From assembly GCF_016805305.1 (NCBI RefSeq), contig NZ_JAERQN010000003.1, positions 1 to 64,000 on the forward strand: a stretch of DNA of 64,000 nt, written 5' to 3'. The DNA is from Falsiroseomonas ponticola (lineage in GTDB: Bacteria > Pseudomonadota > Alphaproteobacteria > Acetobacterales > Acetobacteraceae). The position numbers and the translations under genes were made by a program. The notes beneath the pieces were generated by a model that made no database searches, was not told where the DNA came from, and saw only the letters and a program-made list of their open reading frames with translations. Position 1 is the stretch's first letter. Each line of letters opens with the position of its first letter. Shown piece after piece: positions 40,126 to 58,432 of the stretch.

Positions 40126-40207
40126 AACGATCGCCGTGCGCCGGGAACATCTGGCCGTGCCGCGTGCTTCATGGGCACACTCGCGGAAACGTCCGGACCA
40201 CTGGCCC

Positions 40208-42336: not shown

Positions 42337-42927
42337 TCACCGCTGCCCGTCCCATCGGCTGATCTCCTCCTGCCGCAGCCCGCCGACCCGCGCATGCGGC
42401 CGCCCGCCGGTGGTCATGGCCAGCGCGAAGAGGATCTCGTCCGCCCGCGGCGCATCCGGCACGACGCAGGAGATGCCGTCGAAATGGCTGCGGACATAGG
42501 CGGCGTTGCGATGGTGGATGGGCAGGTCGAGCATGGCGCCCATGGGCCCGACCTTCGTCATGGACGGCACGATCGACAGCGCCTGGCCGAGCAGGCCGCG
42601 CATCGCATAGCCACCGGCCACATGCCACAGCGCGCCGTGCTCCAGCTCCCCCGCGCTGCCCACGATGCCGCCCTTGCCATAGGCCTCCACTCGTGCGGGA
42701 TCGCCGCCGAGCCCGGCCAGCAGCTTCTCCGCCACCATCAGGCCGATCGGCTTCATCGCCTCCATCATCCACATCAGCTCGGGCTCGTAGCGCCCGGCGA
42801 AGGGGTTGCGCAGCACGACGGCGCACCAGCCCTTCAGGATCGGCGTCTCCAGCACCGGCCCGCCATCATGGCGAACCTCCTCCACGCAGAGCACGGTCTT
42901 GCGGATGACGAGGTCCTGGCTGCTCAT
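42337..42927 (-). CDS. Amino acid synthesis family protein (DUF1185)
   Basis: A 196-residue protein that I place in the AA_synth/DUF1185 family (PF06684). Motifs are RKTVLCVEEVRHDGGP near the N-terminus, VVLRNPFAGRYEPEL, then GKGGIVGSAGELEHGALWH and GPMGAMLDLPIHHRNAAYVR, with a C-terminal DEILFALAMTTGGRPHAR. Despite the name its reaction is not established. Family members recur beside nitrogen-heterocycle and amide catabolic genes. The ATG at 42927 overlaps the UPF0280 stop by 4 bases. It is the last gene of the 15-kb operon. Confidence 0.8.
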   Translation of the reverse strand: MSSQDLVIRKTVLCVEEVRHDGGPVLETPILKGWCAVVLRNPFAGRYEPELMWMMEAMKPIGLMVAEKLLAGLGGDPARVEAYGKGGIVGSAGELEHGALWHVAGGYAMRGLLGQALSIVPSMTKVGPMGAMLDLPIHHRNAAYVRSHFDGISCVVPDAPRADEILFALAMTTGGRPHARVGGLRQEEISRWDGQR

Positions 42928-43763
42928 GCGGGCGTCTCCACGGCGAAGGGCCGGCCTAGGATGCGGCTGCGGCCCGCGAGGCGCAACGCGGCGGCGATGA
43001 TCAGCCCGTCGCGCAGGAAGGAAGCCGCCGTGGCGGCGCCGGAATCGAGGGCGCGCGCGACCTCCTCCTCCGCCAGCGGGCCCACAGCGGTGGTGACGAG
43101 GCGGGCGCCGAGATCGCTGTCGGGGTCGAGGGAATCGGCAGGCGCGCGCGTGACGGCGGGGCTGTCGCAATCCACCGCATTGGCGATGAGCGTCGCCGCC
43201 GCATCCGCCGCCGCCGCATCCCGCGCCAGCACCGTGACGGCATCCGCGATGCCCATCGAGAAGGAGCGGCCGTGGCGGCCGGAGGTCGCGATCCCGCCCA
43301 CCCCATCGCCGCCACGCACGCGCAGGGCGCCATCGAAACTGGCGAGGCGCGGATCGAGGGCGAGGCCGATGGCGAGGCTCTCGCCCGCTGCCGCGAAGAC
43401 CGCGATATCGCCGCCATTGTTGACGAAGGCGCGGGTCAGCCCCGGCGCCGCCGCGCGCATGACGGCGAGGAGTTCATCCGCGACCGAACCCGCCACCGCC
43501 GCCATGGGGGTGATGAAGAGGCCGCGCGCGCCGTAGGGCGCGCAGGCCGCGTGCATGCGGCGCGCGACGGCGCCCGCCGGCACGGCACCGACGGGCTGGC
43601 GCAGAAGCGGGAGTTCGGCGACCAGCGCCGGCAGGATCGAGGGAAAGCACGCCAGCGCCGCCTGTTCCGCCGCCGCGGCACCGCTGCCCCAGGTGCGCAG
43701 GACGAGATCGATCGGCCCGTGGTTCAGGTGCAGCCGGCCATCGGCAAGCCGCGCCGCCTGCAT
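42924..43763 (-). CDS. UPF0280 family protein (ApbE superfamily)
   Basis: A 279-residue protein of the UPF0280 family, distantly related to the FMN transferase ApbE. The characteristic middle block is NNGGDIAVFAAAGESLAIGL, followed by GGIATSGRHGRSFSMGIAD with the ApbE-like T-S-G-R pattern and DSDLGARLVTTAVGPL. If it has flavin transferase activity, the neighbouring ring reductase or Mo-hydroxylase could be its target, but this is only positional inference. The ATG at 43763 lies 2 bases after the reductase stop, and its own stop overlaps the next start. Confidence 0.85.
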   Translation of the reverse strand: MQAARLADGRLHLNHGPIDLVLRTWGSGAAAAEQAALACFPSILPALVAELPLLRQPVGAVPAGAVARRMHAACAPYGARGLFITPMAAVAGSVADELLAVMRAAAPGLTRAFVNNGGDIAVFAAAGESLAIGLALDPRLASFDGALRVRGGDGVGGIATSGRHGRSFSMGIADAVTVLARDAAAADAAATLIANAVDCDSPAVTRAPADSLDPDSDLGARLVTTAVGPLAEEEVARALDSGAATAASFLRDGLIIAAALRLAGRSRILGRPFAVETPA

Positions 43764-43765
43764 GC

Positions 43766-45262
43766 TCAGCGCGCGAACGGCCAGGGATTGGCGGAATCCC
43801 AGCCCTGGATGCGCAGCCCATCGCCCAGCCCGCGCAGCAGCGTCTCCACCGGCACGACATCGCCCATATGCCCGCCGAGCCGCGCATAGAGGTCGCGCGG
43901 CAGGGTGAATTCGATGGGCGCGACCAGGGCCGGCGTCGGCACATGGCCGAAGCTGCCGCGCGGCATGCGCAGCACATCCGCCATGATGGTGATGCCGCCG
44001 CCGGGCCAGAGATAGACGGGCGCGCCGCCCATGGTGACGCGCACCTCGCCGGCGGCCACGGCGCGCGTCAGCAGCACGGGATTCTCCGTGACGCCGGCGC
44101 GCAAGGATCCGCCGGCGCCGGCCATGAAGATGACGGAGCAGAGCGAGGGCTCGCAATTCTCCCCGATGCGCTCCACCACCTGGCGCACCGCCGGCGGCAT
44201 CTCCGCCGGCCGGGGCTTCAACGCGTCGTCGAGCACGCACCAGATCGCATCCTCGCCGGTGGTGGAGGTCATCAGCAGCCGGAGCCCCGGCCAGGCGGTC
44301 TTCGGATCGATGCTCTCGATGATGGCGAGCGGGTCGGTGATGTCGGTGCCGCCCCAGCCCATGCCGGGCTGCGCCACCTGGAAGTAGCGCCCGGGGGTGG
44401 AGCGGCGGCCGCGCACGCGGATGCCGGCGGCGCGCATGCCGAGCACCTTGCCCGCCTGGTGTTCCGTCAGCACGCCGGTGATGTGGTCATCGACCACGAT
44501 CACCTCATCCACATGCCCGAGCCATTGCTGGGCGAAGATGCCGACCGCGGCGCTGCCGCATCCCACGCGCATGCGGCGCTCCGCCACGCCGTCCACGATC
44601 GGCGCCTGGCCGGCCTGGACGATGACGCTGTGGCCGCCATCGATGGTGAGTTCGACGGGCCCGGCCTCGCAGAGCGTCAGCAGCGTCTCGCAGGTGACGA
44701 CGCCTTCCTTCTTGCTGCCGCCCGTGAGGTGACGGACACCGCCGAGCGAGAGCATCTGGGAGCCATATTCGGCAGTGGTGACGTGGCCGACCTGCTCGCC
44801 CTTCACGCGCACCGCCGCGGCTTCGGGGCCGAGATGGCGGTCCGTGTCGATCTTCACCTTCACGCCGCAATAGCTGAACATCCCCTCCGTCACGACGGTG
44901 ACGGTATCGACGCCCGCATGGGTCGCGCCCACGATGAAGGGGGCGGGCTTGTAGTCGGGATAGGTGGTGCCGGACCCGACGCCGGTGATGAAGGCGCGGG
45001 CGGGATCGAGCAGCTTGCCGTCCCATTCGGCGTCCGCGAAGGCGACGACGGCGCCGCCGGCGTCGACGACATGGGCGAGCGCCAGGGCGGGGTCGGTGCG
45101 GACCAGCACGCCATCCTGGTTGGCGTAGCGCGAGCATGCGCCGCTGCGGCCCGGGCGGATGCGGCAGAGCACGGGGCAGGCATCGCAGCGGATGATGCCG
45201 CCGTCCTCCGCCGCCCCGAACTTTCGCGAGCGGGCCTCGGCGGAGATGTGGTCATCGGTCAT
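43766..45262 (-). CDS. 6-hydroxynicotinate reductase-like iron-sulfur protein
   Basis: A 498-residue protein with an N-terminal cysteine cluster (RCDACPVLCRIRPGRSGAC, about residues 25-43) likely to bind a [4Fe-4S] cluster. The long C-terminal part is enriched in Gly and carries YPDYKPAPFIVGATHAGVD, FSYCGVKVKIDTDRHLG and TTAEYGSQMLSLGGVRHLTG. This matches the family named after Eubacterium barkeri 6-hydroxynicotinate reductase, which reduces 6-hydroxynicotinate to a tetrahydro-6-oxo form with ferredoxin. The ATG at 45262 is preferred over 45277 because it gives the ATGA overlap with the preceding Mo-hydroxylase gene, as in the rest of the operon. The substrate may differ from nicotinate. Confidence 0.75.
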   Translation of the reverse strand: MTDDHISAEARSRKFGAAEDGGIIRCDACPVLCRIRPGRSGACSRYANQDGVLVRTDPALALAHVVDAGGAVVAFADAEWDGKLLDPARAFITGVGSGTTYPDYKPAPFIVGATHAGVDTVTVVTEGMFSYCGVKVKIDTDRHLGPEAAAVRVKGEQVGHVTTAEYGSQMLSLGGVRHLTGGSKKEGVVTCETLLTLCEAGPVELTIDGGHSVIVQAGQAPIVDGVAERRMRVGCGSAAVGIFAQQWLGHVDEVIVVDDHITGVLTEHQAGKVLGMRAAGIRVRGRRSTPGRYFQVAQPGMGWGGTDITDPLAIIESIDPKTAWPGLRLLMTSTTGEDAIWCVLDDALKPRPAEMPPAVRQVVERIGENCEPSLCSVIFMAGAGGSLRAGVTENPVLLTRAVAAGEVRVTMGGAPVYLWPGGGITIMADVLRMPRGSFGHVPTPALVAPIEFTLPRDLYARLGGHMGDVVPVETLLRGLGDGLRIQGWDSANPWPFAR

Positions 45263-47967
45263 CGCATCGCCTCCCACAGGCGGTGGGGAAGGACCGGCAC
45301 GCGCGTCACGCGCACCCCCGTCGCGTGGCGGATGGCGCCGAGGATGGCGGGCGAGGTCGGGACCAGGGCCGGTTCGCCGACGCCCTTGGCGCCATAGGGG
45401 CCCTCCGGTTCCGGATCCTCGACAAGATGCACGCGGATGGGCGGCACGTCGCCCGCGGTCGGGATCAGGTAGTCGTGGAGGTTCTCGGTGCGGCCGGGGA
45501 TGTACTCCTCCATCAGCGCCAGGCCGAGGCCCTGCGCGATGCCGCCATGGATCTGGCCGAGGACGAGGTCCGGGTTGATGGCGCGGCCTACATCCTGCGC
45601 GGCGACGATCTCTTCCACCTTCACCGTGCCGAGCTGCGTATCCACGCGCACCAGCGCGATCTGCGCGGCGAAGCCATAGGTGGCGTAGGGGATGCCCTGG
45701 CCATCGGCGTCCAGCGCCGTCGTCGGCGGGTCGTAGCGGCCCTCGGCGTCCAGGTCGGCGGGCAGGGCGGCGAGGTCGATGGTCCGCGCGGCGCCGGCGC
45801 CATCGGTGACGGTGAGCGTGGTGCCCGCCAGCGAAAGCCGTGCATCCTCCCCGGCATTGGCCAGGGCGAGGATCCGGGCCCGCAGCGCGCGGCCGGTTTC
45901 CATCGCGGCACGGCCACTCACGAAGGTTTGGCGGGAGGCGCTGGTCTTGCCCGCGTCATGCGTCAGCGCGGTGTCGCCCAGCACGAAGTCGATGGCGTGA
46001 ACGGGCAGGCCTACGGCATCGGCAAAGATCTGCGCGATGACGGTGGTGCTGCCCTGGCCGATATCGACCGCACCGTTGAACAGCGTGAGCCGCCCGTCGC
46101 GCGCCAGCACGGCCCGCATGCGGGACGGGTTGGACATGGAGGTATTGCCGCAGCCATACCACATGCAGGCGATACCGGCGCCGAGGCGGTGGCGCGGGTT
46201 GCCGGCGTTGTGCGCCTCGACCTTCGCCAGCATCGCGTCCCAGTCCGGCTTCAGCGCATCCAGGCAATCCGTCAGCCCCGCCGAGGCCTGCAGCACCTGG
46301 CCGGAATGGGTGACATCGCCGCGGCCCAGCGCGTTGCGCCGCCTGATCGCCCAGCGGTCCATGCCGAGCTGCAGCGCCAGGTCATCGACCAGCGCCTCCG
46401 TCGCGATCGCCGCCTGCGGCACGCCGAAGCCGCGGAAGGCGCCGGAGGGTGGTTCATTGGTGTGTACGGCCCGAGCCTGCGCGCGGACATGCGGCACGCG
46501 GTACGGCCCCGCGGCATGGACGGGCACGCGGTTCGCGACCGTCGGTCCCCAGCTCGCATAGGCGCCGGTGTTGAAGTCGCCCTCCAGCGTATAGGCGAGG
46601 AAGCTTCCTTCAGTGTCAGCGGACATCCGCGCGTGAAGTTGAGCGGGGTGACGCTTCGTCGAGGACGCCATGCTCTCCGTGCGGCTGTAGGTTACGCGGA
46701 CGGGCCGGTTCACGCGTCGCGCCGCCACGGCCAGCAGCGGCTGCACGGAGACGTCGAGCTTGCCGCCGAAGCCGCCACCGCAGGCGGAGGGGATGATGCG
46801 CACGGCGTCCTCGGCGATGCCGAGCACGCGGGCCACCTCCTCCCGGTCCATATAGGGCGCCTGGGTGCAGGCGATGATGTCCATGCCGTCCTCGCGCGGG
46901 ATGGCGTGGCCGGCCTCGGGTTCGATATAGGCGTGCTCGACGAAGCTGGTGGTGAAGGCGCCCTCGGCGGTGGCAGCGGCCGTGGCGTGCGCGGCATCGG
47001 GGTTGCCGCGCGCGAGCCGTCCCTGCACCAGGACGTTGCCGGGCGCATGGGCATGCAGCAGGGGCGCGCCCTCGGCCCGCGCGGCCTCCACGCCGATGAG
47101 GGCGGGTTGCGGCTGCCAGGTGATCGGCAGGTCGGCATCGCGCACGGCCTCCACCGCTGCACGCTCACCGACCAGCGCCAGCACGGCTTCGCCGCGATAT
47201 CTGACGAAACCGTCGGCCAGCACGGGCTGGTCCTTCAGCGCGGGCATGATGCCGAAGCCGTTGAGGCCGGGGACATCGGCCGCCGTCAGGATGGCGTGCA
47301 GGCTCAGCGCGATGCGCGCCGCCTCGATGTCGCCGAGCGTGAAGCGCGCGCTGGCATGGGGGGATCTCACCACGCGGAGCCACAGCGCCTCGGCCGGCGC
47401 GCTGTCCGCGCCGTAGCGTTCGCTGCCGAGCACCTTGGGCCAGCCATCCAGCCGTGCCAGGGAGGCGCCTACGGCCTCGCCGGCGGCGGCCTCCTGCTCC
47501 ACCGGGGCAAAGCCCTGCGCGGCCGCCAGCACGGCCTCCACGATCTTCTGGTAGCCCGTGCAGCGGCAGAGCACGCCGCCGATGGCATCCCGCACCGCCT
47601 GCGCATGGGGCGCGGCGTCGCGCAGCAGCAGGTCGGCCGCCGCCATGATCATGCCGGGGGTGCAGATGCCGCATTGCGCGGCGCCATGGGCGAGGAAGGC
47701 GGCGCGCAGGCGGGCCAGCAGCGCGCCCGTCTCGCCCGACTGCATCTCGATCGTCGTGATCGCCGCACCTTCCGCCTGCGCGGTCGGCACCAGGCAGGCG
47801 CAGGCCTGGGCGCCATCCAGCAGCACGGTGCAGGCGCCGCAATCGCCGGCCTCGCAGCCCACCTTGGTGCCCGTAAGCCCGAGGGCTTCACGCAGCGTGT
47901 CCGACAGCGGCGCGAAGGGCGCGGCATCCGTGCTGGCGGGCGCGCCGTTCAGCGTGAAGGCGATCAT
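45259..47967 (-). CDS. Molybdopterin hydroxylase with fused [2Fe-2S] domain (xanthine dehydrogenase family)
   Basis: A 902-residue single-chain fusion of the small and large subunits of a xanthine-dehydrogenase-family Mo-hydroxylase, like Desulfovibrio aldehyde oxidoreductase. The N-terminal 160 residues carry the plant-type cluster (GCEAGDCGACTVLLDG) and the second cluster (AAQCGICTPGM, GGVLCRCTGYQ). The catalytic region follows with PSACGGGFGGKLDVSVQPLL, then PPSGAFRGFGVPQ and GAKGVGEPALVP, where Glu is the catalytic base. It should hydroxylate a heterocycle or aldehyde with water. The separate FAD subunit is encoded just upstream with a 4-base overlap. The partner genes suggest a nitrogen ring as substrate. 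Confidence 0.92.
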   Translation of the reverse strand: MIAFTLNGAPASTDAAPFAPLSDTLREALGLTGTKVGCEAGDCGACTVLLDGAQACACLVPTAQAEGAAITTIEMQSGETGALLARLRAAFLAHGAAQCGICTPGMIMAAADLLLRDAAPHAQAVRDAIGGVLCRCTGYQKIVEAVLAAAQGFAPVEQEAAAGEAVGASLARLDGWPKVLGSERYGADSAPAEALWLRVVRSPHASARFTLGDIEAARIALSLHAILTAADVPGLNGFGIMPALKDQPVLADGFVRYRGEAVLALVGERAAVEAVRDADLPITWQPQPALIGVEAARAEGAPLLHAHAPGNVLVQGRLARGNPDAAHATAAATAEGAFTTSFVEHAYIEPEAGHAIPREDGMDIIACTQAPYMDREEVARVLGIAEDAVRIIPSACGGGFGGKLDVSVQPLLAVAARRVNRPVRVTYSRTESMASSTKRHPAQLHARMSADTEGSFLAYTLEGDFNTGAYASWGPTVANRVPVHAAGPYRVPHVRAQARAVHTNEPPSGAFRGFGVPQAAIATEALVDDLALQLGMDRWAIRRRNALGRGDVTHSGQVLQASAGLTDCLDALKPDWDAMLAKVEAHNAGNPRHRLGAGIACMWYGCGNTSMSNPSRMRAVLARDGRLTLFNGAVDIGQGSTTVIAQIFADAVGLPVHAIDFVLGDTALTHDAGKTSASRQTFVSGRAAMETGRALRARILALANAGEDARLSLAGTTLTVTDGAGAARTIDLAALPADLDAEGRYDPPTTALDADGQGIPYATYGFAAQIALVRVDTQLGTVKVEEIVAAQDVGRAINPDLVLGQIHGGIAQGLGLALMEEYIPGRTENLHDYLIPTAGDVPPIRVHLVEDPEPEGPYGAKGVGEPALVPTSPAILGAIRHATGVRVTRVPVLPHRLWEAMR

Positions 47968-48809
47968 TCCCCGAGATCCCAGAGCAGGTCACGCAGCAGC
48001 CGCAGCGCGGCATCGCGGCGATAGGCGCCGGTGGCGCGGATATCGTCGATGGGCGAGAGGTGATCGAGGTGCCGCGCCTCCGGCACCTTGTCCGCGTGGT
48101 AGAGGGAGCTGCCGCGCAATTCCGCCTCCAGCCCCGGCAGCCGCTGCGCGGTGGCGGAACAGGCGCCGATGGCCAGGCGCGCCATCAGGATGCGGCCATT
48201 CTCATCGATGTCGATGACGGCGGCGACCATGGCGATGGAGATGACGAGGTAGTGCCGCGCGCCGAGCTTGCGGAATCCGCTGACGGCGCGGGGCAGCTTC
48301 GGGACATGCAGCCCGACCGCGATCTCGTCCGCCGCCAGCGCGGTGGCGCGGTAGCCCGTGAGGAAGTCGGCGACGGGCAGCATGCGCGTGCCCTCACGCC
48401 CCGCGACCTCGACATGCGCGTTCAGCGCGAGAAGGTTCGGGATGCCATCGCCGGCCGGCGAGGCGGTGACGAGGTTGCCGAGGATGGTGCCGCGATTCTG
48501 CACCTGCTGGCCGCCGACCTGCCGCGCCGCCTGGCGCAGCCCGTCGAACTGCTTCGGCAGGCCAGCGCGCCAGATGTCGGACCAGGTGACGAGGCAGCCG
48601 AGGCGCCAGCCATGCGGGCCTTCCTCGATCCCGCGCAGGCCGGGGATGGCGGTGATGTCCAGCACATCCTTGTGCGTCGGGTCGCCCCAGGCGCGGCGAT
48701 TGGCGGCGGCGGGATAGATGTCCGTGGCACCGGCGAGGATCGCGACATCCTCGCCAGAGCGGATCGCCAGCGCCTCGGTCAGCGTGGCGGGGCGGTGGTA
48801 GCGGGTCAT
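47964..48809 (-). CDS. FAD-binding subunit of the molybdopterin hydroxylase
   Basis: A 281-residue CoxM/XdhB-type flavoprotein subunit. FAD contacts are in LAGATDIYPAAANR, in NRGTILGNLVTASPAGD and around FRKLGARHYLVISIA. It passes electrons from the Fe-S clusters of the fused Mo subunit to an acceptor. The order FAD subunit, then fused Fe-S/Mo subunit, is consistent with one enzyme. The start overlaps the HyuB stop and its stop overlaps the Mo-subunit start, each by 4 bases. Confidence 0.92.
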   Translation of the reverse strand: MTRYHRPATLTEALAIRSGEDVAILAGATDIYPAAANRRAWGDPTHKDVLDITAIPGLRGIEEGPHGWRLGCLVTWSDIWRAGLPKQFDGLRQAARQVGGQQVQNRGTILGNLVTASPAGDGIPNLLALNAHVEVAGREGTRMLPVADFLTGYRATALAADEIAVGLHVPKLPRAVSGFRKLGARHYLVISIAMVAAVIDIDENGRILMARLAIGACSATAQRLPGLEAELRGSSLYHADKVPEARHLDHLSPIDDIRATGAYRRDAALRLLRDLLWDLGE

Positions 48810-50533
48810 CGCGCTGCGCGCCTTGCCTGCGTGGCGGCTTCGTCCACAACGCCATCGCGCAGCACGACGCCCCAGAGCGAGTCCGCCTGCGAGGCCGTGT
48901 AGGTGCCGCGCATCACGTCGCGCGCAACCAGCGCGGGGTCGCGCATGAAGGGATCGCCATGGCCGCCGCCGCCGGGTGTCATGACCTCGACGCGATCGCC
49001 TTCGCGCAGCAGCAAACCCTGGTCCTTCGAGAGATGCGGCGGGATGGTGGTGATGCCGTCACGGTGCAGGCGCACGACGTTGGGCGCGCCGGCCTGGCCG
49101 CCGCGCACGCCGGGCGGGCCGAAGCGGCCATGGTCCATCACGAAGCTAGCCCGCGCCTCGCCGCGCAGCAATTCCACCTCGTAATGCACGCCGAAGCCGC
49201 CGCGATGCTGGCCGGCGCCGCCGCTGCCCTCATGGATCGCGAAGCGGCGGAAGAGGATGGGATAGTACTGTTCCATCACCTCGACCGGCGCGGTCTTGCT
49301 GATGCCGATGGTGGAGCAGCCATTCGTCAGGCCATCCGCATCCGCGGTGCCGCCATAACCGCCGCCAGTGATCTGGTACATCACATAGCCCGCCCTGCGT
49401 GCGGGATCGAAGCCGCCGAGCGCGAAATTGCCGGAGGTGCCGGCGGGCGCGGCCCAGATGTCGAGAACGGGCGCGAGCGCCAGGAACACCGCCTCCGCCA
49501 CGCGTTGCGAAACCTCCGCCGCGCAGCCGGAGACGGGGCGGGGATAGCGGGCATCGAGGAAGGTGCCCGCCGGCCGCGCGACGCGAATGGGCTCGAAGGT
49601 GCCGGCATTGATGGGCACATCGGGGAAGATGTGCTTCATCGCGAGATAGACGGCGGAACAGGTGGTGGCCCAGACGGAGTTCATCGGGCCCTGGCAGGGC
49701 GGTGAGCTTTCCGAGAGATCGAAGTACAGCTCGTCACCGGCGCGCGCGACGGTGAGCGCGATGCGCAGCGGTTCGTTGACCACGCCATCGGAATCGACAA
49801 AGGCTTCCGCGCGGTAGGTTCCTTCAGGGATGCGCCGGATCTCGGCGCGCATGCGCTCCGCGGCGCGGTCGCGGATGCCGGCGATGGCGTCGCGCAGCGT
49901 GGCCAGGCCGTAGCGCGCCACCATCTCCCGCAGCCGCTGTTCGCCGACCAGCAGCGCCGCGGCCTGGGCCTTGATGTCGCCGATGCGCTGTTCGGCCACG
50001 CGGATGTTGGACTGGATGATGGAGAGGATCTCCCTATCCAGCACGCCGCGCTTGAAGAGCTTCACGGGGGGCAGGCGCAGGCCCTCCTGCTCGACCTCCG
50101 TCGCATGCGCGGAGAAACCACCGGGCACCATGCCACCGATATCCGGCCAGTGGCCGGTGTTCTGCAGCCAGCAGAACAGCTCGCCCTCCACGAAGAAGGG
50201 CAGGGCGAAGCGCACATCCATGAGATGCGTGCCGCCGAGATAGGGGTCGTTGACGATGTAGATGTCGCCGGGCTCCGGTGCCGCCACCGCGCCTTCGCGG
50301 ATCAGCCGCACGAGATGCGCGGCTGAATGCGCCATGGTGCCGACGAAGACGGGCAGGCCCAATTCGCCCTGCGCGATCAGCGCGCCATCCTCCGCGGCGT
50401 AGATGCCATCCGACCGGTCATCGGCCTCCGCGATCACGGGGGAGAAGGCGCTCCGGGAGAAGGCGATATCCATCTCGTTGCAGACCTGCTGCAGGCCTGC
50501 CTGGATCACCGCGAGGGTCAGCGCATCCATCAT
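48806..50533 (-). CDS. hyuB: Hydantoinase B/5-oxoprolinase family protein
   Basis: HyuB-type subunit of 575 residues. Signatures are NEMDIAFSRSAFSPVIAEADDRSDG, then DIYIVNDPYLGGTHLMDV and FYDL-like segments, and the glycine-rich RGGFGVHYEVELLRGEA (each quoted in part). With HyuA it forms an ATP-dependent cyclic amidase or, in relatives such as acetone carboxylase, an ATP-dependent carboxylase. Start ATGs at 50533 and 50530 both exist; the first gives the ATGA overlap with hyuA. In this operon it probably opens a lactam or imide ring after hydroxylation and reduction. Confidence 0.92.
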   Translation of the reverse strand: MMDALTLAVIQAGLQQVCNEMDIAFSRSAFSPVIAEADDRSDGIYAAEDGALIAQGELGLPVFVGTMAHSAAHLVRLIREGAVAAPEPGDIYIVNDPYLGGTHLMDVRFALPFFVEGELFCWLQNTGHWPDIGGMVPGGFSAHATEVEQEGLRLPPVKLFKRGVLDREILSIIQSNIRVAEQRIGDIKAQAAALLVGEQRLREMVARYGLATLRDAIAGIRDRAAERMRAEIRRIPEGTYRAEAFVDSDGVVNEPLRIALTVARAGDELYFDLSESSPPCQGPMNSVWATTCSAVYLAMKHIFPDVPINAGTFEPIRVARPAGTFLDARYPRPVSGCAAEVSQRVAEAVFLALAPVLDIWAAPAGTSGNFALGGFDPARRAGYVMYQITGGGYGGTADADGLTNGCSTIGISKTAPVEVMEQYYPILFRRFAIHEGSGGAGQHRGGFGVHYEVELLRGEARASFVMDHGRFGPPGVRGGQAGAPNVVRLHRDGITTIPPHLSKDQGLLLREGDRVEVMTPGGGGHGDPFMRDPALVARDVMRGTYTASQADSLWGVVLRDGVVDEAATQARRAAR

Positions 50534-52566
50534 GGCGCCACCCGGAGATTGCCGATGACATCGACGATGGCGCGCGATCCGGGTTCCAGCACCGTCGTCG
50601 CATCCGCCTGCTGGATGATGGCGGGGCCGTGCAGCACCGCACCCTCCGGCAGGCGCTCACGCTGCCAGACGGTGGCCTGGTGCCAGGCGCCATCGGCGTA
50701 GAGCGCGCGCTCGCCGATCCGCGCGGCCTCCACATCCCCCTGGCGCGCATCGGGATCGAGCAGCGCGGAGAGCGGGAAGGACGGGCGCCTTCCGATCACC
50801 GTCGTCAGCAGGTTGACCAGCACGGCCCGGATCTCCGGCAGCTCCACGCGGAAGCGGGCGAAGTAGGCGGCCTCGAAGGCCTTCTGGATGTCCGTCAGTG
50901 CCATGTCGGCGCGCGGCAGCGCGACGCGGATCAGGTGCGTCTGGCCGCGGAACTGCATCTCCGCGCTGTGCAGCACCACGATCTCCTCCAGCGCAGGTGC
51001 GTCGGCCTGGATCATCGCGATGCCGCGATCACGCTGCGCGGCCAGCGTCGCGGCGATCTCGCCCTCGGGGATCTCGAACAGCCCGCGATTGATGGTGTTG
51101 ACGAAATCCTGGCGGAGATCGGCGACCAGGCAGCCCAGCGCATTGGTCAGACCGGGGCGGGCAGGCACCAGCACCTCCGGGATCCCGATCTCCCGCGCCA
51201 GCGCCACCGCATGCAACGGCCCTGCGCCACCGAAGGCGAAAAGGCAGAAATCGCGGGGATCATGCCCCTTGGAGAGCGAGACCAGGCGGATCGCGCCCGT
51301 CATGTGCACATTGCCGAGCCGGATCACCGCCTCCGCGGCCTGCTCCACGCTCATGCCGAGCGGTTCCGCAATGTCGTGCCTGAAGACATCCCTGATGCTG
51401 TCGAGCGAAACCGGGTTCGCGACAGCCAGCAGACGGGCCGGATCCAGCCGCCCGAGGATGATGTTCGCGTCCGTGATGGTGGGCCGCGTGCCGCCGCGGC
51501 CATAGCAGATCGGACCCGGCGTGCTGCCCGCGCTTTCCGGCCCCACGCGCAGCATGCCCGCGCGGTCCAGGCTCGCGATGGAGCCGCCGCCGGCGCCAAC
51601 CGTCCGCACATCGACCATCGGCAAATGGATCGGCAGCCCATAGGCGATGGAGAGTTCGGCCGAGACTTCCGGCACGCCACCTGCGATCAGTGCCACATCG
51701 GTGGAGGTCCCGCCCATGTCGTAGGTGATGGCGTTGCGCAGCCCCGTCTGCGCCAGCGTCGCGGCGGCGGCCATCACGCCGGAGGCCGGGCCGGACATCA
51801 CCGTCTTGGCGGCTTCGCGGGAGACGAGGCGGGCGGAGACGGTGCCGCCATTGCCGTTCATCACCAGCAGGTCGCGCTTGTGGCCGCGCGCTGCCAGCTG
51901 TTCCTGCAGCCGCGTGACGTAGCGGTCCAGCACTGGTTGCACCGCGGCGTTCACGGAGGCCGTGGTGCCGCGTTCGTATTCCCGGAATTCCGACAGCAGC
52001 TCATGCCCCAGCGTGACATGCCCGTTGGGCCAGATCGCGCGCGCGATCTCTCCCGCGCGGCGTTCATGCGCGGGGTTGGCATAGGCGTGCAGGAAATGGA
52101 TCACGAGGGATTCGCAGCCGGCGTCGCGCAGCGCCCGCACCTCGCGCGTCAGCGCCGCCTCGTCCAGCGGCGTCACGACGGCGCCGCGCGCATCCATGCG
52201 CTCCGGCACTTCCCGGCGAAGCTCGCGCGGCACCAGCGGCTCGAAGGTCCCTTTCAGTCCATAGGGGTTGGGCCGGGTGCGGCGGCCGAGTTCCAGCACA
52301 TCCCGGAACCCCTGGGTCGTGACCAGCCCGACCTTGGCGAGTTTCCGCTCCAGCACGGCATTCGTCGTGGCCGTCGTGCCATGGATGATGAGGTCGAGCG
52401 TGGCGGGGGTGGCGCCGGCGGCCTCGATGGCGGCCAGCACGCCATCGGCCTGGTTGGCGATGGTAGTGGGCACCTTGGCCAAGCGGATGCGGCCATCGGC
52501 CGCGCGCAGCAGCAGGTCGGTGAAGGTGCCGCCCACATCGATGCCCGCGACTATACCGTCAGCCAT
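50530..52566 (-). CDS. hyuA: Hydantoinase A/5-oxoprolinase family protein
   Basis: HyuA-type ATP-binding subunit of 678 residues with the ASKHA fold. Motifs are GIDVGGTFTDLLLR at the N-terminus, HGTTATTNAVLERK, then YDMGGTSTDVALI and FAFGGAGPLHAVALAREIG. It uses ATP to activate and hydrolyse a cyclic amide bond together with HyuB. The start lies within the livF gene (16-base overlap), so it is translated from the transporter mRNA. Length and motifs are normal; the ring substrate is unknown. Confidence 0.92.
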   Translation of the reverse strand: MADGIVAGIDVGGTFTDLLLRAADGRIRLAKVPTTIANQADGVLAAIEAAGATPATLDLIIHGTTATTNAVLERKLAKVGLVTTQGFRDVLELGRRTRPNPYGLKGTFEPLVPRELRREVPERMDARGAVVTPLDEAALTREVRALRDAGCESLVIHFLHAYANPAHERRAGEIARAIWPNGHVTLGHELLSEFREYERGTTASVNAAVQPVLDRYVTRLQEQLAARGHKRDLLVMNGNGGTVSARLVSREAAKTVMSGPASGVMAAAATLAQTGLRNAITYDMGGTSTDVALIAGGVPEVSAELSIAYGLPIHLPMVDVRTVGAGGGSIASLDRAGMLRVGPESAGSTPGPICYGRGGTRPTITDANIILGRLDPARLLAVANPVSLDSIRDVFRHDIAEPLGMSVEQAAEAVIRLGNVHMTGAIRLVSLSKGHDPRDFCLFAFGGAGPLHAVALAREIGIPEVLVPARPGLTNALGCLVADLRQDFVNTINRGLFEIPEGEIAATLAAQRDRGIAMIQADAPALEEIVVLHSAEMQFRGQTHLIRVALPRADMALTDIQKAFEAAYFARFRVELPEIRAVLVNLLTTVIGRRPSFPLSALLDPDARQGDVEAARIGERALYADGAWHQATVWQRERLPEGAVLHGPAIIQQADATTVLEPGSRAIVDVIGNLRVAP

Positions 52567-53264
52567 GTCGCCCGCACCTGCTCGTCATTCTCCAGCGCTT
52601 CCATGGTGCCGGTCCAGCGGATCTCTCCGCGCTCGATCACCAGCGCGCGGTCGGCGACGGCGGCGGCGAAGTCGAGGCTCTGTTCGGAGAGCAGCACGGC
52701 GATGCCTTCCTCCTTCATGCGCAGCACGGCTTCCGCCATCTGCTCCACGATGACGGGTGCCAGGCCCTCGGAGGGTTCGTCCAGCAGCACGGCATCGGGG
52801 TTGCCCATCAGCGTGCGGGCGATGGTCAGCATCTGCTGCTCGCCCCCCGACATGGCGCTGGCGCGGCGGCCGCGCATTTCCGCGAGGTTGGGGAAGAAGT
52901 TCCACAACCGCTCCGGCGTCCAGGGCGCGCGGCCGCCGCGGGCGGGGCGGCGCCCCACTTCCAGGTTCTCCGCCACCGTCAGGTCCGTGAAGATGCGCCG
53001 GTCCTCCGGCACATAGCCGAGGCCGAGCCGCGCGACCTGGTAGGGCGCCCAGCCCGTGATGTCCTGGCCGGCAAAGCGGATGCGGCCCGCGCGCGGTGGC
53101 AGCAGGCCCATGATGGCCTTCATCGTCGTGGACTTGCCGGCGCCGTTGCGTCCCATCAGCGCCGCGACCTCGCCGCGCGCCAGGGTGAGATCGACGCCGA
53201 ACAGCACCTCGGCGGGGCCATAGCCGGCCTTGAGGCCCGCAACCTCCAGCACCGCCTCAACCAT
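52551..53264 (-). CDS. livF: Branched-chain amino acid-type ABC transporter ATPase LivF
   Basis: ATP-binding subunit of 237 residues. Walker A is GRNGAGKST, the signature is MSGGEQQML, Walker B is AVLLDEPSEGL, and LGYVPEDRRIFTDLTVAENL is the LivF-specific Q-loop region. The C-terminal segment ends in ALENDEQVRATWLTV. It pairs with LivG to drive the fused permease. The ATG at 53264 overlaps the livG stop by 8 bases and the gene overlaps hyuA by 16 bases. The linkage to ring-opening enzymes implies that the transporter imports their substrate. Confidence 0.94.
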   Translation of the reverse strand: MVEAVLEVAGLKAGYGPAEVLFGVDLTLARGEVAALMGRNGAGKSTTMKAIMGLLPPRAGRIRFAGQDITGWAPYQVARLGLGYVPEDRRIFTDLTVAENLEVGRRPARGGRAPWTPERLWNFFPNLAEMRGRRASAMSGGEQQMLTIARTLMGNPDAVLLDEPSEGLAPVIVEQMAEAVLRMKEEGIAVLLSEQSLDFAAAVADRALVIERGEIRWTGTMEALENDEQVRATWLTV

Positions 53265-54039
53265 GCAGCGCCCGCCTGGCGCGCAGCGCCGCCTTGTGGC
53301 CGCTGGTGCCGAGATAGACGCGCTGAACCTCGGCATTCGCGCGCACCTCCTCGGGCGTGCCCTCCGCGATCACCTCGCCGCGCACCAGCACCAGGATGCG
53401 GTCGGCATGGGCGAAGACGGCATCCATGTCATGCTCCGTGAACAGCACGCCGATGCCGCTGCCGCGCGCGATGGTGGCGGTCAGCTGCATCAGCGCGGCG
53501 CGTTCGCGGGGCGCCATGCCGGCGGTCGGCTCATCCATCAGCAGCAGGCGTGGCGCGGCGGCGAGCGCGATGGCGAGTTCCACGCGCTTCACATCGCCAT
53601 AGGCGAGTTCGCCGATCGGGCGATCCGCCTCGCCTTCCATGCCGACGCGGGCCAGCAGCGCGAGAGCGTCGTCGCGATACAGCCTGGCCGCATCCGCTAC
53701 CATGTCCCGCGTCCGCCCGTGATGGGCGACCAGTGCCATCTGGACGTTGCCGGCGACGGACATCGACAGGAACGTCTGCGCCACCTGGAAGGTGCGGCCG
53801 ACGCCCATGCGGCAGACCTGGCGCGGCGGCTGGCCGGTGATGTCCTGGCCCGCCAGGACCACGCGCCCGGTATCCGGTCGCAGCTGGCCGCCCACCATGT
53901 TGAAGGTGGTGGATTTGCCGGCGCCGTTCGGGCCGATGATGGCCAGCATCTCCCCGGCCGACAGCGCGAAGCTGACGTTCCGCGCGGCGACGACGCCGCC
54001 GAAGGCCTTGTTCAGCCCCTCCACCGCCAGCAGCGTCAT
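53257..54039 (-). CDS. livG: Branched-chain amino acid-type ABC transporter ATPase LivG
   Basis: ATP-binding subunit of 260 residues. Walker A is GPNGAGKST, the LivG motif is GVGRTFQVAQTFLSMSV, and the Walker B region is RLLLMDEPTAGM. The signature region reads LAYGDVKRVELAIAL rather than LSGGQ-like, a variant seen in LivG homologues. The ATG at 54039 overlaps the permease stop by 4 bases. It works with LivF on the fused LivH-LivM membrane protein. Confidence 0.94.
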   Translation of the reverse strand: MTLLAVEGLNKAFGGVVAARNVSFALSAGEMLAIIGPNGAGKSTTFNMVGGQLRPDTGRVVLAGQDITGQPPRQVCRMGVGRTFQVAQTFLSMSVAGNVQMALVAHHGRTRDMVADAARLYRDDALALLARVGMEGEADRPIGELAYGDVKRVELAIALAAAPRLLLMDEPTAGMAPRERAALMQLTATIARGSGIGVLFTEHDMDAVFAHADRILVLVRGEVIAEGTPEEVRANAEVQRVYLGTSGHKAALRARRALHG

Positions 54040-55883
54040 GCGCGCCACCCCGCGAAGGCGCCGGCCAGGCCGCGCGGGAAGACCAGCACCAGCGCGATGA
54101 TCGAGGACCCCAGCAGGAAGCGCCAGAAATCCGTCAGCGGCATGAAGATGTCCTTGATGGTGTGGAAGGCCGCGGCGCCCGCGACGGCCCCCATCACCGT
54201 CTGGATGCCGCCCAGCAGGATCATGGCCAGGAAATCGACGGAGAGCGGAATCGCCAGCAGCGTCGGGTCGATGGAGCCCTTGGAGAAGGCGTAGAGCCCA
54301 CCGGCCAGGCCCGCCGCGCCGCCGGCGAGGGTGAAGGCCAGCCAGCGATGGGTGCGGACATCGATGCCGATGGCATCCGCGCGCTGTTCCGAGTCCCGTG
54401 CCGCCCGCAGCGTCGCGCCGAAGGGAGCATAGACCACGCGGCGCAGTGCCACGATGGCCAGGATGGCGCTGGCCGCGACGACGTAGTGATAGACATGGCG
54501 GGATGACGCCCAGGCGCTGGGCCAGACGCCGACCACGCCATTGTCCCCGCCCGTCACCTCCACCCATTGGAAGCAGACGGCATAGGCGATCTGCGCGAAG
54601 GCGAGGGTCAGCATGGCGAGGTAGATGCCGGAGAGGCGCACGACGAAGAAGCCGAACAGCGCGGCGAAGGCGGCACCCGCGATGGGGGCCGCGACCAGCG
54701 CGGGTTCCATGGGCAGCCCGCCCTTCGTCACCAGCAGCCCCGCCGCATAGGCGCCAAGCCCGAAATAGGCGGCATGGCCGAAGCTGACGATGCCGCCATT
54801 GCCGACGAGGAAGTTAAGCGAGAAGGCGGCCAGCGCGAAGACCAGCACCTCCGTCGCCACCTTCACCGCATAGGCGTCGCCGAAGACGGGCACGGCAAGC
54901 ATGGCGGTGATGGCGACGCCCGCGATGATGCGTTCCGGCAGGCCGAAGGCGCGCACCGACAGGATGCCCTCGGGCAGGGCGGCGCGGCCGGCGGCGGCCT
55001 CGGGCCGGCCGAGCAGCCCCCAGGGCTTCACCACCAGCACCGCCGCCATCAGCAGGAAGACCAGCACCAGCGTGATCTTGGGGAATACCAGCACGCCAAA
55101 CGCCTGCAACTGCCCGATCAGCACGGCGGCGAGGAAGGCGCCGGGCACGCTGCCCATGCCGCCGATCACCGTCACCACGAAGGCCTCCGTGATGATGGAC
55201 AGGTCCATCTGGGAGGAGGCGGAGAGGCGCGGAATCTGCAGCGCGCCGCCAAGCCCCGCCAGCGCGGCGCCGAGGAACAGCGTGCCGGTGAAGAGCATCG
55301 CCTGGTTGACGCCGAGCGCCCCCACCATCTCCCGGTCCCGCGTCGCGGCACGGATCAGGATGCCGAAGCGCGTGCGGTGCATCAGCAGCCAGAGCAGGCC
55401 GAGCACGGCCGGGCCGATGACGATCAGGAACAGCTCATAGGCCGGGAATCGCTGGCCCAGGATCTCCACGCCATGGCGCAGGCCGGGCGCGCGGGGGCCG
55501 GGGATATCGACCGGCCCCCAGATCTTGAGCACCGCATCCTGCACCATCAGCACAACGCCGAAGGTGGCCAGCAGCTGGAACAGCTCCGGCACCTTGTAGA
55601 GGCGGCGCAGCAGCAGAAGCTCCATCAATACGCCCAGCACGCCGACGGCGATGGCGGAGATCAGGACGCCCGCGAAGAACAGCGCGGGGGATCGGTCGAT
55701 CTCCAGCAGCCAGGGTACCACCGTGACGGCGATATAGGCGCCCAGCATGTAGAAGCTGCCATGCGCGAAGTTGACGATGCGCGTGACGCCGAAGACGAGG
55801 GTCAGCCCCGAGGCGATGATGAACAGCGCGGAGGCGCTGGCCAGTCCCGAGAGGGACTGGACCACGATGAACCCGATATCCAT
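54036..55883 (-). CDS. Fused LivH-LivM type ABC permease
   Basis: A 615-residue permease that joins the two membrane subunits usually encoded separately. The N-terminal half is LivH-like: ASGLTLVFGVTRIVNFAHGS near the start and ALGVNQAMLFTGTLFLGAALAG. The C-terminal half is LivM-like: LNFLVGNGGIVSFGHAAYFG, then RLSGIYLAMLTLAFAQ and AIGIDVRTHRWLAFTLAGGA, each shown in part. The join is at about residues 285-315 (WGLLGRPEAAAGRAALPEG). About 16 hydrophobic helices are visible. It imports the ligand of the upstream binding protein. Its ATG at 55883 lies 120 bases from the binding-protein stop, across a hairpin. Confidence 0.93.
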   Translation of the reverse strand: MDIGFIVVQSLSGLASASALFIIASGLTLVFGVTRIVNFAHGSFYMLGAYIAVTVVPWLLEIDRSPALFFAGVLISAIAVGVLGVLMELLLLRRLYKVPELFQLLATFGVVLMVQDAVLKIWGPVDIPGPRAPGLRHGVEILGQRFPAYELFLIVIGPAVLGLLWLLMHRTRFGILIRAATRDREMVGALGVNQAMLFTGTLFLGAALAGLGGALQIPRLSASSQMDLSIITEAFVVTVIGGMGSVPGAFLAAVLIGQLQAFGVLVFPKITLVLVFLLMAAVLVVKPWGLLGRPEAAAGRAALPEGILSVRAFGLPERIIAGVAITAMLAVPVFGDAYAVKVATEVLVFALAAFSLNFLVGNGGIVSFGHAAYFGLGAYAAGLLVTKGGLPMEPALVAAPIAGAAFAALFGFFVVRLSGIYLAMLTLAFAQIAYAVCFQWVEVTGGDNGVVGVWPSAWASSRHVYHYVVAASAILAIVALRRVVYAPFGATLRAARDSEQRADAIGIDVRTHRWLAFTLAGGAAGLAGGLYAFSKGSIDPTLLAIPLSVDFLAMILLGGIQTVMGAVAGAAAFHTIKDIFMPLTDFWRFLLGSSIIALVLVFPRGLAGAFAGWRA

Positions 55884-55895
55884 CTACCGCACCTG

Positions 55896-55947
55896 AAAAA
55901 CCAAGGCGGCCGGCGGCTGCTGGCCGAGCCGCCGAATGGCGGCCGCC
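55896..55947 (-). terminator. Intra-operon terminator-like hairpin between receptor and permease genes
   Basis: On the minus strand an outer 7-base-pair stem (GGCGGCC 55947-55941 with GGCCGCC 55911-55905) encloses a 6-base-pair inner stem (GGCGGC / GCCGCC, 55928-55933 with 55912-55917) and a 10-base loop. It is followed by TTGGTTTTT, a U-run. It lies downstream of the binding-protein stop and 12 bases upstream of the permease start. It probably ends a fraction of transcripts so that the receptor is made in excess. A second dyad (CAAGCGC...GCGCTTG, 55963-55993) stands between the receptor stop and this hairpin. Confidence 0.65.
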
Positions 55948-56003
55948 GGAAGTCCGGCGAGCCAAGCGCGCGGATGCGCGCGCCCGGCGCTTGAGGGCAT
56001 CAA

Positions 56004-57230
56004 CTAAACTCTCCGGGCGGCGCGGACCTCGGCCTCGGGGAACATGAAGTCCGCGCCGTCGGCGTAGCGGATGTTGCGCATGGCGCCCTGGCGGCCGCGC
56101 AGCACCGTCTCTCCCACCCAGGTGCCCATGGTGCCCTGCTGGTCGATGGCGCGCATGGTGACGTTGCCCACCACCGTGTCGGTGCGGAGATCCTTGAAGG
56201 CCTCGACGAGCACTTCGCTGTCGATGGAATTCGCCTTGTTCAGCAGGTTCGCCACCACCTGCGCGGTGACGTAACCCAGCAGCGACCCCTTGCGCGGCGT
56301 GTCGTTGAACCGGGCGCGATAGGCATCGATGAAGGCCTTGTGCGTGCCGTCGGTGATCTGTTCCCAGGGATAGCCGGTGACGATCCATCCCTCCGGCGTC
56401 TCGTCGCCCAGCGGGATCATGTATTCGGGCTCGCCGGTCAGCAGGGACAGCACGAAGCGGCGTTCGAACAGGCCGCGGGTGTTGCCTTCGCGGACGAAGG
56501 CCGTCAGGTCCGGTCCGAACAGCACGTTGAAGATGCCATCGGGCCGCGCCTGCGCCAGCGCGCCGACGGTGGCGCCGGCATCGACCCGGCCGAGGGCGGG
56601 ATACTGCTCCGCCACGATCTCGGCGCCCGGGATGCTGGCCGTGATCAGGCGCTTGAAGTTGGCGGCGGCGGATTGCCCGTATTCGTAGTTCGGCGCCACG
56701 ATCGCCCAGCGCCGCGTGGTGCGGCCGCGCGCCGCTTCCGTCAGCATGCGCGTCTGCATGAAGGTGCTGGGCCGCAGCCGCCAAGTGTAGCGGTTGCCCT
56801 GCGCCATGGTCAGCGCATCGGTCAGCGGCTCCGTCGCCAGGAACAGCTTCTTCCGCTGGTTCGCCAGGTCCGCGACGGCGAGCCCGACATTGGAGAGGAA
56901 GGTGCCGGCCAGGAAGGCGCAGCCTTCCCGCGTCAGCAGGTCCTCGGCCACGCGCACCGCGTCACCGGGCGTCGATCCATCGTCGCGGAAGACGAATTCG
57001 AGCGGCCGGCCGCCCATCACGCCGCCGGCGCGGTTGATGCCGTCCACCGCCAGCTGGATGGCGTTGCGGTAGGGGACGGAGAAGGCGGCCATGCGGGAAT
57101 AGGAGTTCAGCTCCCCCACCTTCACCGGCGCGCCCTGCGCGGCGCTGCCGCGGGCCCCGATCAGCGCCGCCGTCGCGATGCCAGAGCCTGCCGCCAGCGC
57201 CGTGCGCCGGGTGAAGGAAGTGCCAGCCAT
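56004..57230 (-). CDS. Liv-type ABC transporter substrate-binding protein
   Basis: Periplasmic receptor of 408 residues in the type I (LivJ/Leu-binding) family. The N-terminus SFTRRTALAAGSGIATAALI contains a twin-arginine motif, so export may be Tat-dependent. The mature protein begins near GAPVKVGELNSYSRMAAF. Typical segments are NRAGGVMGGRPLEFVFRDDG and WAIVAPNYEYGQSAAANFK. The ligand is unknown, but the downstream ring-degrading enzymes suggest a heterocycle or cyclic amide rather than an amino acid. It is the first gene of the 11-gene unit; its promoter should lie in 57231-57308, where nothing is obvious. Confidence 0.92.
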   Translation of the reverse strand: MAGTSFTRRTALAAGSGIATAALIGARGSAAQGAPVKVGELNSYSRMAAFSVPYRNAIQLAVDGINRAGGVMGGRPLEFVFRDDGSTPGDAVRVAEDLLTREGCAFLAGTFLSNVGLAVADLANQRKKLFLATEPLTDALTMAQGNRYTWRLRPSTFMQTRMLTEAARGRTTRRWAIVAPNYEYGQSAAANFKRLITASIPGAEIVAEQYPALGRVDAGATVGALAQARPDGIFNVLFGPDLTAFVREGNTRGLFERRFVLSLLTGEPEYMIPLGDETPEGWIVTGYPWEQITDGTHKAFIDAYRARFNDTPRKGSLLGYVTAQVVANLLNKANSIDSEVLVEAFKDLRTDTVVGNVTMRAIDQQGTMGTWVGETVLRGRQGAMRNIRYADGADFMFPEAEVRAARRV

Positions 57231-57308: not shown

Positions 57309-58265
57309 CTACAGGGGGCCCCGCGCCAGGACCAGCATCGTATCCTCCCGCCGCTCCAGGATCGCGGGCGGCGCCACCTGGTGCACCTGGCCATCCAGGC
57401 CGAGTTCGCGCAGCGGGAAGCGCGCGGCGATGTCGGCCAGCGTCGCCTCCGCCGCGCGGCAGCGCAGCGCGTTGAATTCCATCAGCACGATGATGTCGGA
57501 ATTGGCATCCAGCACGCGGGTGAGCCCGGCCCAGGCCTGTTCCTCCGCCCCCTCCACGTCGATCTTGATGAAGTCCACCCGGCCGGTCACGAGATCGTCG
57601 ATCCGCATGCCGGGGACGGCGATCTCGACCGTGTCGCCATCATCCGGCACCGCGCCGCCCGCCTTCACCAGCCGGCCATTCTTGGGATCCGAGGTCAGGA
57701 AGCGGAAGGCCAGCGCCTGGCCGCTGGCATCGCCCGCGGCCACGCGTTCGACCCGCGACTGGTGCCAGAAGCCGTTCAAGGCGAGGTTGCGTTCCGCCAG
57801 CTGCGCGAGCCGTGGATTGGGCTCCACGGCGATGAGGCGGCCCTCGGCGCCGACCAGCTCCGCCATCAGGATGGAGAAGTAGCCGAGGTTGGCGCCGACA
57901 TCGAGGACGACCATGCCCGGCTTCACCGTGCGGAGCATGAATTCCGTCGTCCACATCTCCCAGTAGCCATCCAGCATGAGATGCGGCGCCAGTGCCACGT
58001 CCCGGCCATCCACCATCATCTTGTAGCGGCCCAGCACGCGGCAGAGCACCGTCGAGGGATCGACCTGCACGGCCTGGCAGCGGATGCGGGACGCGTTCTC
58101 CAGGACTGTGCGCGACAGGTTCTGCAGCTGCTCCATCGTCAGCAACGACCCGTCCGCCGGTGGCGCGACGGCCACGGAATGCGGGGCGGGCGGCGGTGGC
58201 GGCGGGGGCGGCGCGCCGGCCAGCTTGCCCAGCGCCCGGCGCCAGGGGGGCGGCGGCTCCGTCAT
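57309..58265 (-). CDS. FkbM family methyltransferase
   Basis: SAM-dependent O-methyltransferase of about 318 residues. The glycine-rich SAM motif is VVLDVGANLGYFSILMAEL, the acidic residue is in IAVEPNPRL, and the FkbM-specific DFIKIDVEGAEEQAW motif is near the middle. An N-terminal Pro-rich stretch (nine consecutive Pro) precedes the domain. FkbM enzymes methylate sugars or polyketides; the substrate is unknown. The start is uncertain: 58265 gives a native-looking MTEPPPPWRRALG, while 58319 and 58397 would add residues. It is divergent from the AapJ-like gene and downstream of nothing in operon distance. Confidence 0.85.
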   Translation of the reverse strand: MTEPPPPWRRALGKLAGAPPPPPPPPAPHSVAVAPPADGSLLTMEQLQNLSRTVLENASRIRCQAVQVDPSTVLCRVLGRYKMMVDGRDVALAPHLMLDGYWEMWTTEFMLRTVKPGMVVLDVGANLGYFSILMAELVGAEGRLIAVEPNPRLAQLAERNLALNGFWHQSRVERVAAGDASGQALAFRFLTSDPKNGRLVKAGGAVPDDGDTVEIAVPGMRIDDLVTGRVDFIKIDVEGAEEQAWAGLTRVLDANSDIIVLMEFNALRCRAAEATLADIAARFPLRELGLDGQVHQVAPPAILERREDTMLVLARGPL

Positions 58266-58432
58266 CCCGCGCGGCGCGGCGGGGCTTCCGCCTCTGTCCG
58301 GGTCATGATGCTCCGCCATCCATCCGGCATCGCGTGTACCCGGTCGTGCTGGCGCGGACAACGGGCGGGGGTGGCGGGCGCTGCCCCCGCGCGGCATGGT
58401 GCGCCACCAGACCGATCGGGGGAGATGAGGCC

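Follow-up and report, generated by a model that had tools for sequence, protein, structure and literature searches.

A predicted exchange of the ring-opening enzyme in a reductive nicotinate-type operon of Falsiroseomonas ponticola

The first 64,000 nucleotides of contig NZ_JAERQN010000003.1 of Falsiroseomonas ponticola (assembly GCF_016805305.1), the whole stretch analysed here and called the window, contain an 11-gene operon on the minus strand, running from 57230 to 42337, that encodes an orthologue of 6-hydroxynicotinate reductase (Hnr) together with the two subunits of a HyuAB protein. How would such an operon open the ring of its substrate? In Eubacterium barkeri a bifunctional enamidase opens 1,4,5,6-tetrahydro-6-oxonicotinate (THON), and Azorhizobium has the same route (PMC9304392). 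The original prediction made from this DNA had proposed HyuAB as a substitute for a missing enamidase. Orthologues of the enamidase and of this HyuB occur together in 0 of 118 hnr genomes, and from this and the sequence comparisons given below we consider it likely that the operon serves the reductive catabolism of nicotinate, or of an N-heterocyclic acid very close to it, and that HyuAB does the work of the enamidase in it.

Open reading frame (ORF) and domain analysis of the window bears out the predicted 11-gene operon: all genes lie on the same strand, and after a gap of 120 bases between the substrate-binding protein and permease genes the junctions, read 5' to 3' with preferred starts, are −4, −8, −16, −4, −4, −4, −4, +2 and −4. 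For five genes the longest ORF starts too far upstream, and the likely starts are 54039 (LivG), 53264 (LivF), 45262 (Hnr), 43763 (UPF0280) and 42927 (DUF1185). The gene between Hnr and DUF1185, unnamed in the original prediction, encodes a UPF0280 (ApbE-like) protein, while the molybdenum (Mo) hydroxylase, described there as three-part, consists by its Pfam domains of two polypeptides, a flavin adenine dinucleotide (FAD) subunit and a fused [2Fe-2S]/molybdopterin subunit. In operon order, with lengths in amino acids (aa) and structures from the Protein Data Bank (PDB), the features are:

56004..57230, minus strand: Liv/Urt-type substrate-binding protein (SBP), 408 aa (Pfam PF13458, E 2.7e-58)
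55884..56003, minus strand: 120-nucleotide gap with three G+C-rich hairpins (RNA fold)
54036..55883, minus strand: fused LivH-LivM permease, 615 aa (PF02653 in two stretches; N half UrtB-like, C half UrtC-like)
53257..54039, minus strand: LivG-type ATPase, likely start ATG 54039 (PF00005 and PF12399)
52551..53264, minus strand: LivF-type ATPase, likely start ATG 53264, longest ORF from 53336 (PF00005)
50530..52566, minus strand: HyuA, ATP-binding subunit of a predicted ATP-dependent lactamase, 678 aa (PF01968/PF05378/PF19278; PDB 7hk5 438 bits, 6yra_A 409 bits)
48806..50533, minus strand: HyuB, metal-binding subunit, 575 aa (PF02538, E 8.6e-157; 6yra_B alignment)
47964..48809, minus strand: FAD subunit of a xanthine-dehydrogenase-family hydroxylase, 281 aa (PF00941, PF03450)
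45259..47967, minus strand: fused [2Fe-2S]/molybdopterin subunit of a predicted nicotinate hydroxylase, 902 aa (PF00111, PF01799, PF01315, PF02738, PF20256)
43766..45262, minus strand: Hnr orthologue, 498 aa, 8 conserved Cys (plasmid matches, conserved columns)
42924..43763, minus strand: UPF0280 protein with ApbE (flavin mononucleotide transferase) fold, 279 aa (NF003322, 330 bits, cut-off 290; structure model)
42337..42927, minus strand: DUF1185/AA_synth protein, 196 aa (PF06684, E 4e-65; 219 bits, gathering cut-off 27)

Hnr and the nicotinate route

Searches of Pfam, NCBIfam and PDB sequences returned no family or identity for Hnr. Plasmid proteins gave 26 matches, every one at 60-80% identity; among the 25 matches listed identity was 62-78%, and 16 of these are annotated as 6-hydroxynicotinate reductase (an annotation, not an assay), the remainder being hypothetical or without annotation. 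The closest Hnr is that of Falsiroseomonas algicola (97% identity). Eight cysteines fall in conserved alignment columns, including C26-x2-C29-x3-C33-x9-C43. Because the AlphaFold2 (AF2) model, with a mean predicted local distance difference test (pLDDT) score of 86, has no clear fold in the PDB (none by Foldseek at E<=0.001; best VIA-align Z 5.0 over 65 residues), the fold and cofactor site are not readable from it.

The gene order proved to be conserved elsewhere in a set of 106 loci (71 genome contigs, 6 plasmids and 29 further genome loci). In 95 of the 106, UPF0280 is the next gene detected 3' of hnr and shares its strand, and in 84 the Mo subunit gene is the next one detected on the 5' side. 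UPF0280 was found in all but four loci (102/106), namely L058, L072 and L114, in which hnr is near a contig end, and L080, in which it is not. DUF1185 is present in 68, many loci being short; several Neoroseomonas clusters whose flanks are long (L017, L022-L024) have none near hnr, and there it can be dispensed with. The conserved core consists of Hnr and UPF0280, frequently joined by DUF1185, and in many relatives the enamidase stands alongside. Transporter and hydroxylase vary around it: loci of the Rhodobacterales type have a different Liv importer (SBP identity 25-28%), the same transporter (at least 50% identity) accompanies either ring opener (it is present in 31 of 63 loci with Hyu and in 12 of 42 with the enamidase), and two plasmids encode large Mo proteins that have cytochrome c domains at the C terminus, annotated nicB on one of the two. 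In six HyuAB cluster variants (L023, L025, L029, L033, L047 and L088) hnr follows hyuB and the locus has no Mo-hydroxylase match.

An hnr cluster conserved between Azorhizobium and Bradyrhizobiaceae has been published as the nicotinate cluster, and strain SG-6C carries a homologue at 42% identity in the context of Hnr (PMC3511419); two genes of that account are, we infer, UPF0280 and DUF1185. Hnr orthology, the conserved core and the enamidase that accompanies it in many relatives indicate that the pathway is most likely the reductive route for nicotinate that earlier work described in aerobic Azorhizobium and its relatives. The earlier view of an unknown substrate and an uncharacterised pathway gives way to this published cluster and to orthologous cores with enamidase or annotated nicA/nicB, while its picture of a single unit for import, Mo-hydroxylation, and reduction and opening of the ring is supported. 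The aerobic route is already known, and the new part is the ring-opening enzyme. Among the 11 operon genes none was recognised for the steps from 2-formylglutarate onward, the rest of the genome not having been searched for them.

An assignment to another N-heterocyclic acid, handled by the same hydroxylase and Hnr logic, is one that we think improbable. In its favour, and against nicotinate, the substrate of the Mo-hydroxylase is not readable from sequence, its xanthine-dehydrogenase-family subunits giving no NCBIfam equivalog above cut-off; moreover, no Mo subunit was detected in 16 of the 106 loci, which include short contigs, so that hydroxylation there could come from elsewhere or the substrate be a different one. 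Opposing it are the attribution of the cluster to nicotinate in print (PMC3511419), the presence of transporter, hydroxylase and Hnr orthologues in enamidase-bearing clusters as well, and the Neorhizobium plasmid pNCHU2750a, on which annotated nicA/nicB, a Liv importer, hnr, UPF0280, two DUF1185-type genes, hyuA and hyuB all lie within one 19-kb stretch (L091:1-19428).

HyuAB and the enamidase as ring openers

The enamidase was recognised through cluster c0, a frequent neighbour in other loci (20 loci), whose one representative searched had as its best PDB match 2vun, the E. barkeri enamidase (E 2.1e-101). Its predicted absence from F. ponticola extends to the whole genome (6.73 Mb, 29 contigs), in which matches are partial, the best at E 1.7e-8 and none at E<=1e-60.

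Distribution across genomes likewise backs HyuAB as the substitute. Hnr is present at E<=1e-30 in 68 of 385 genomes sampled from the class; with orthologues called at E<=1e-200 and at least 65% identity for HyuB, and at 53-62% identity to the query for the enamidase, 38 of the 68 have HyuB, 29 the enamidase, none both, and one, a genome 68% complete, neither (Fisher p 2e-18, without a correction for kinship). A second set of 50 hnr genomes, which may share species with the first, gave 15 with HyuB, 35 with the enamidase (at least 52%) and none with both; it comprises L033-L082 of the 71 contig loci, L012-L032 not having been searched genome-wide. Tallies at E<=1e-60 (31 of 68; 37 of 50) include weaker enamidase paralogues. 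Enamidase genomes hold up to 22 other HyuB-family candidates at a first look, and the exclusion therefore concerns this orthologue group and not the superfamily. Sixteen HyuB-family matches occur in the 6.7-Mb F. ponticola genome alone.

The pattern recurs across lineages. On an Hnr tree of 142 rows (quick method, LG+G4), HyuB- and enamidase-type Hnr intermix, with at least 12 state changes between the two, gains or losses, six of which are forced by starred, well-supported branches. In nearly all of 200 pairings there are six independent pairs that go opposite ways (median p 0.031, range 0.031-0.063). Of the 34 family codes, 17 have Hyu only and 14 the enamidase only; f34 and f104 are mixed, and f64 joins a Hyu genome with the genome that has neither. 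The tree leaves out L037, for want of a complete Hnr piece, and also G028 and G231, whose Hnr is split or partial but which are still counted in the 68; L031 and L140 (G064) have no assigned state. The predicted exchange of enamidase for HyuAB, or the reverse, is thus a repeated one among relatives.

What reaction would HyuAB catalyse? HyuB aligns over nearly its full length with the caprolactamase subunit CapB (6yra_B), its D39, H103, D106 and H128 corresponding to the metal ligands Asp41, His99, Asp102 and His124, and the four sites do not vary among the 27 cluster HyuB sequences aligned, that of the window included. THON is a delta-lactam, with its carboxylate at the ring position matching the substituent of 5-methylpiperidin-2-one. 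Metal-site mutants of CapB are inactive (the third is named D101A, the ligand Asp102), and the phosphate-site motifs named for subunit A, DxGGTxTD, DxGGT and GxxPGP (PMC8453981), appear in HyuA as DVGGTFTD, DMGGTSTD and GSTPGP. OplAB hydrolyses delta-valerolactam and 5-methylpiperidin-2-one (PMC11033972). With the CapB ligands kept, six-membered lactams opened by OplAB and THON being the substrate of the enamidase, we propose that HyuAB is probably an ATP-dependent lactamase for THON. A carboxylase role was ranked low on lower bit scores to acetone/acetophenone carboxylases (308/267 for HyuA, 124/82 for HyuB) than to lactamases/hydantoinases (438/409 and 261/233).

Several observations weigh against HyuAB as the enamidase's replacement. 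The enamidase acts without ATP, and spending ATP on the same lactam needs a reason, for which tighter substrate capture is one guess. Only 20 of the 38 class genomes have HyuB at 30 kb or less from hnr; it is farther off on the same contig in 7 and on other contigs in 11. The enamidase is within that distance in 20 of 29. The presence cut-offs were fixed after the score gaps had been seen. An enamidase paralogue at 38-42% identity occurs in four Hyu genomes (G104 and G289 of the class sample, G416 and G434 of the second set), and the E. barkeri enamidase itself scores just modestly above such paralogues, which are also found as extra copies in enamidase genomes (seven in the class sample, eight in the second set). 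Of the 317 class genomes without Hnr, four from one family, f114, carry HyuB at 64% identity, five more hold HyuB at 56-59%, and one has the enamidase. In G114 of that family (L163:9061-15124) HyuAB at 57-63% identity stands beside a different Mo-hydroxylase (28%) with no Hnr match, possibly another heterocycle route. The enamidase orthologue of G082 (L164:8004-9173) likewise has no Hnr match.

The cost of ATP would be explained if HyuAB lineages reduced the ring further, to 6-oxopiperidine-3-carboxylate, which the enamidase could not open; the substrates of OplAB and CapAB are saturated lactams. We nevertheless regard this as unlikely, as none of the 11 genes encodes an extra reductase, enamidase genomes have an Hnr with 61-75% identity to that of the window, and both kinds intermix on the tree. 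That HyuAB is a chance neighbour with an unrelated role, such as 5-oxoproline or hydantoin salvage, might be suggested by the size of the family, with its 16 homologues in this genome, but is very improbable, because this orthologue group goes with hnr and not with the enamidase orthologue, also where it does not adjoin hnr.

Accessory proteins and surroundings

The AF2 model of UPF0280 (pLDDT 95.1) matches ApbE/Ftp/FmnB structures at Z 14.4-16.4 over 202-217 residues, the next unrelated group, urate oxidases, reaching Z 7.5. In the 2006 study of Alhapel et al., E. barkeri Hnr reportedly carries a covalently bound flavin; we found no open paper saying so. From such a flavin and the modelled fold, we propose that UPF0280 may mature Hnr by attaching a covalent flavin to it. 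The canonical flavinylation target motif is D-x-x-[ST]-G-A-[ST] (PMC12052999). It occurs in 0 of 142 Hnr sequences, and a looser SGTT in 48; as for the catalytic His of ApbE, 67 UPF0280 sequences have no invariant His, H12 alone being near-invariant. If UPF0280 is a transferase, it would work differently. No mention of UPF0280 was found in the open literature among the matches listed.

The fold of Bacillus chorismate mutase resembles RidA, and on that likeness DUF1185 is perhaps an accessory enamine/imine deaminase by analogy. DUF1185 structures resemble Bacillus chorismate mutase, their tie to amino-acid metabolism being loose (PMC2954203). A second DUF1185 gene in the same genome (L002:1501-2022) is 41% identical to that of the operon.

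The hairpins behind the receptor gene (55884-56003) have a fold energy of −70.2 kcal/mol (z −2.90), equally low in 1 of 200 shuffles; they are possibly an mRNA stabiliser or attenuator, perhaps holding receptor mRNA in excess over that of the membrane and enzyme genes. A promoter scan at the operon gave no match where 0.9 would be expected by chance, and is hence uninformative. The upstream FkbM methyltransferase gene (57309-58397) was left out as a twelfth member, having no match in the 106 loci; this negative is weak, since with 33 receptor matches a minority of the loci reach past the receptor, and the nearest relatives, L012-L014, do not. Outside the operon, a gene for a BLUF blue-light sensor (40061-40621) overlaps the end of mutL (38293-40125).

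A proposed scheme and its relation to known systems

In the scheme that we infer, all of whose reactions are predictions, the Liv-type ABC importer would take up the acid, the FAD and [2Fe-2S]/Mo subunits would convert it to the 6-hydroxy compound, and Hnr, probably equipped with a covalent flavin by UPF0280, would reduce this to the delta-lactam THON. HyuA would activate THON with ATP, directly or via carboxyphosphate as proposed for CapAB/OplAB, and HyuB would hydrolyse the activated lactam at its bound metal to an enamine, from which 2-formylglutarate and ammonia would arise, DUF1185 assisting, perhaps as an enamine/imine deaminase.

The exchange of ring opener is well supported by genomic comparison; the two accessory roles are weaker. 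That all three hold jointly in the 38 of 68 hnr alphaproteobacteria, with HyuAB replacing the enamidase, UPF0280 a new type of flavin transferase (no canonical motif, no invariant histidine) maturing Hnr, and DUF1185 an enamine/imine deaminase, we put forward only tentatively and judge unlikely. If it were true, a single operon would give two uncharacterised families their functions and a third family a new substrate. On the main reading, an ATP-dependent lactamase would stand in place of a metal amidohydrolase at the ring opening of a vitamin catabolic route, and there is a likely substrate for one clade among the many HyuAB proteins now labelled 'hydantoinase/oxoprolinase'. Hnr becomes a candidate partner for UPF0280, and the operon a context for DUF1185. 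No printed link between HyuAB and an Hnr-type nicotinate pathway was found in the open literature, most subscription journals lying outside the search.

Three known systems bear comparison. The model of UPF0280 shares a near-whole-length fold with the ApbE flavin transferases, but the protein scores 19.5 bits against a Pfam ApbE cut-off of 25.6 and has no invariant His. CapAB (PDB 6yra) and OplAB have the same two subunits as HyuAB, with ATP-site motifs in A and an Asp-His-Asp-His metal site in B; HyuAB differs in its NCBIfam caprolactamase scores (298 and 494 bits against a cut-off of 1000) and in sitting in an hnr cluster. Finally, the reductive nicotinate pathway of E. barkeri and Azorhizobium caulinodans also has a Mo-hydroxylase and Hnr, in what appears to be the same order of chemistry, its proteobacterial version also sharing a putative dedicated importer with the operon (PMC3511419, PMC9304392), whereas the operon described here has HyuAB in place of the enamidase and a fused Fe-S/Mo subunit.

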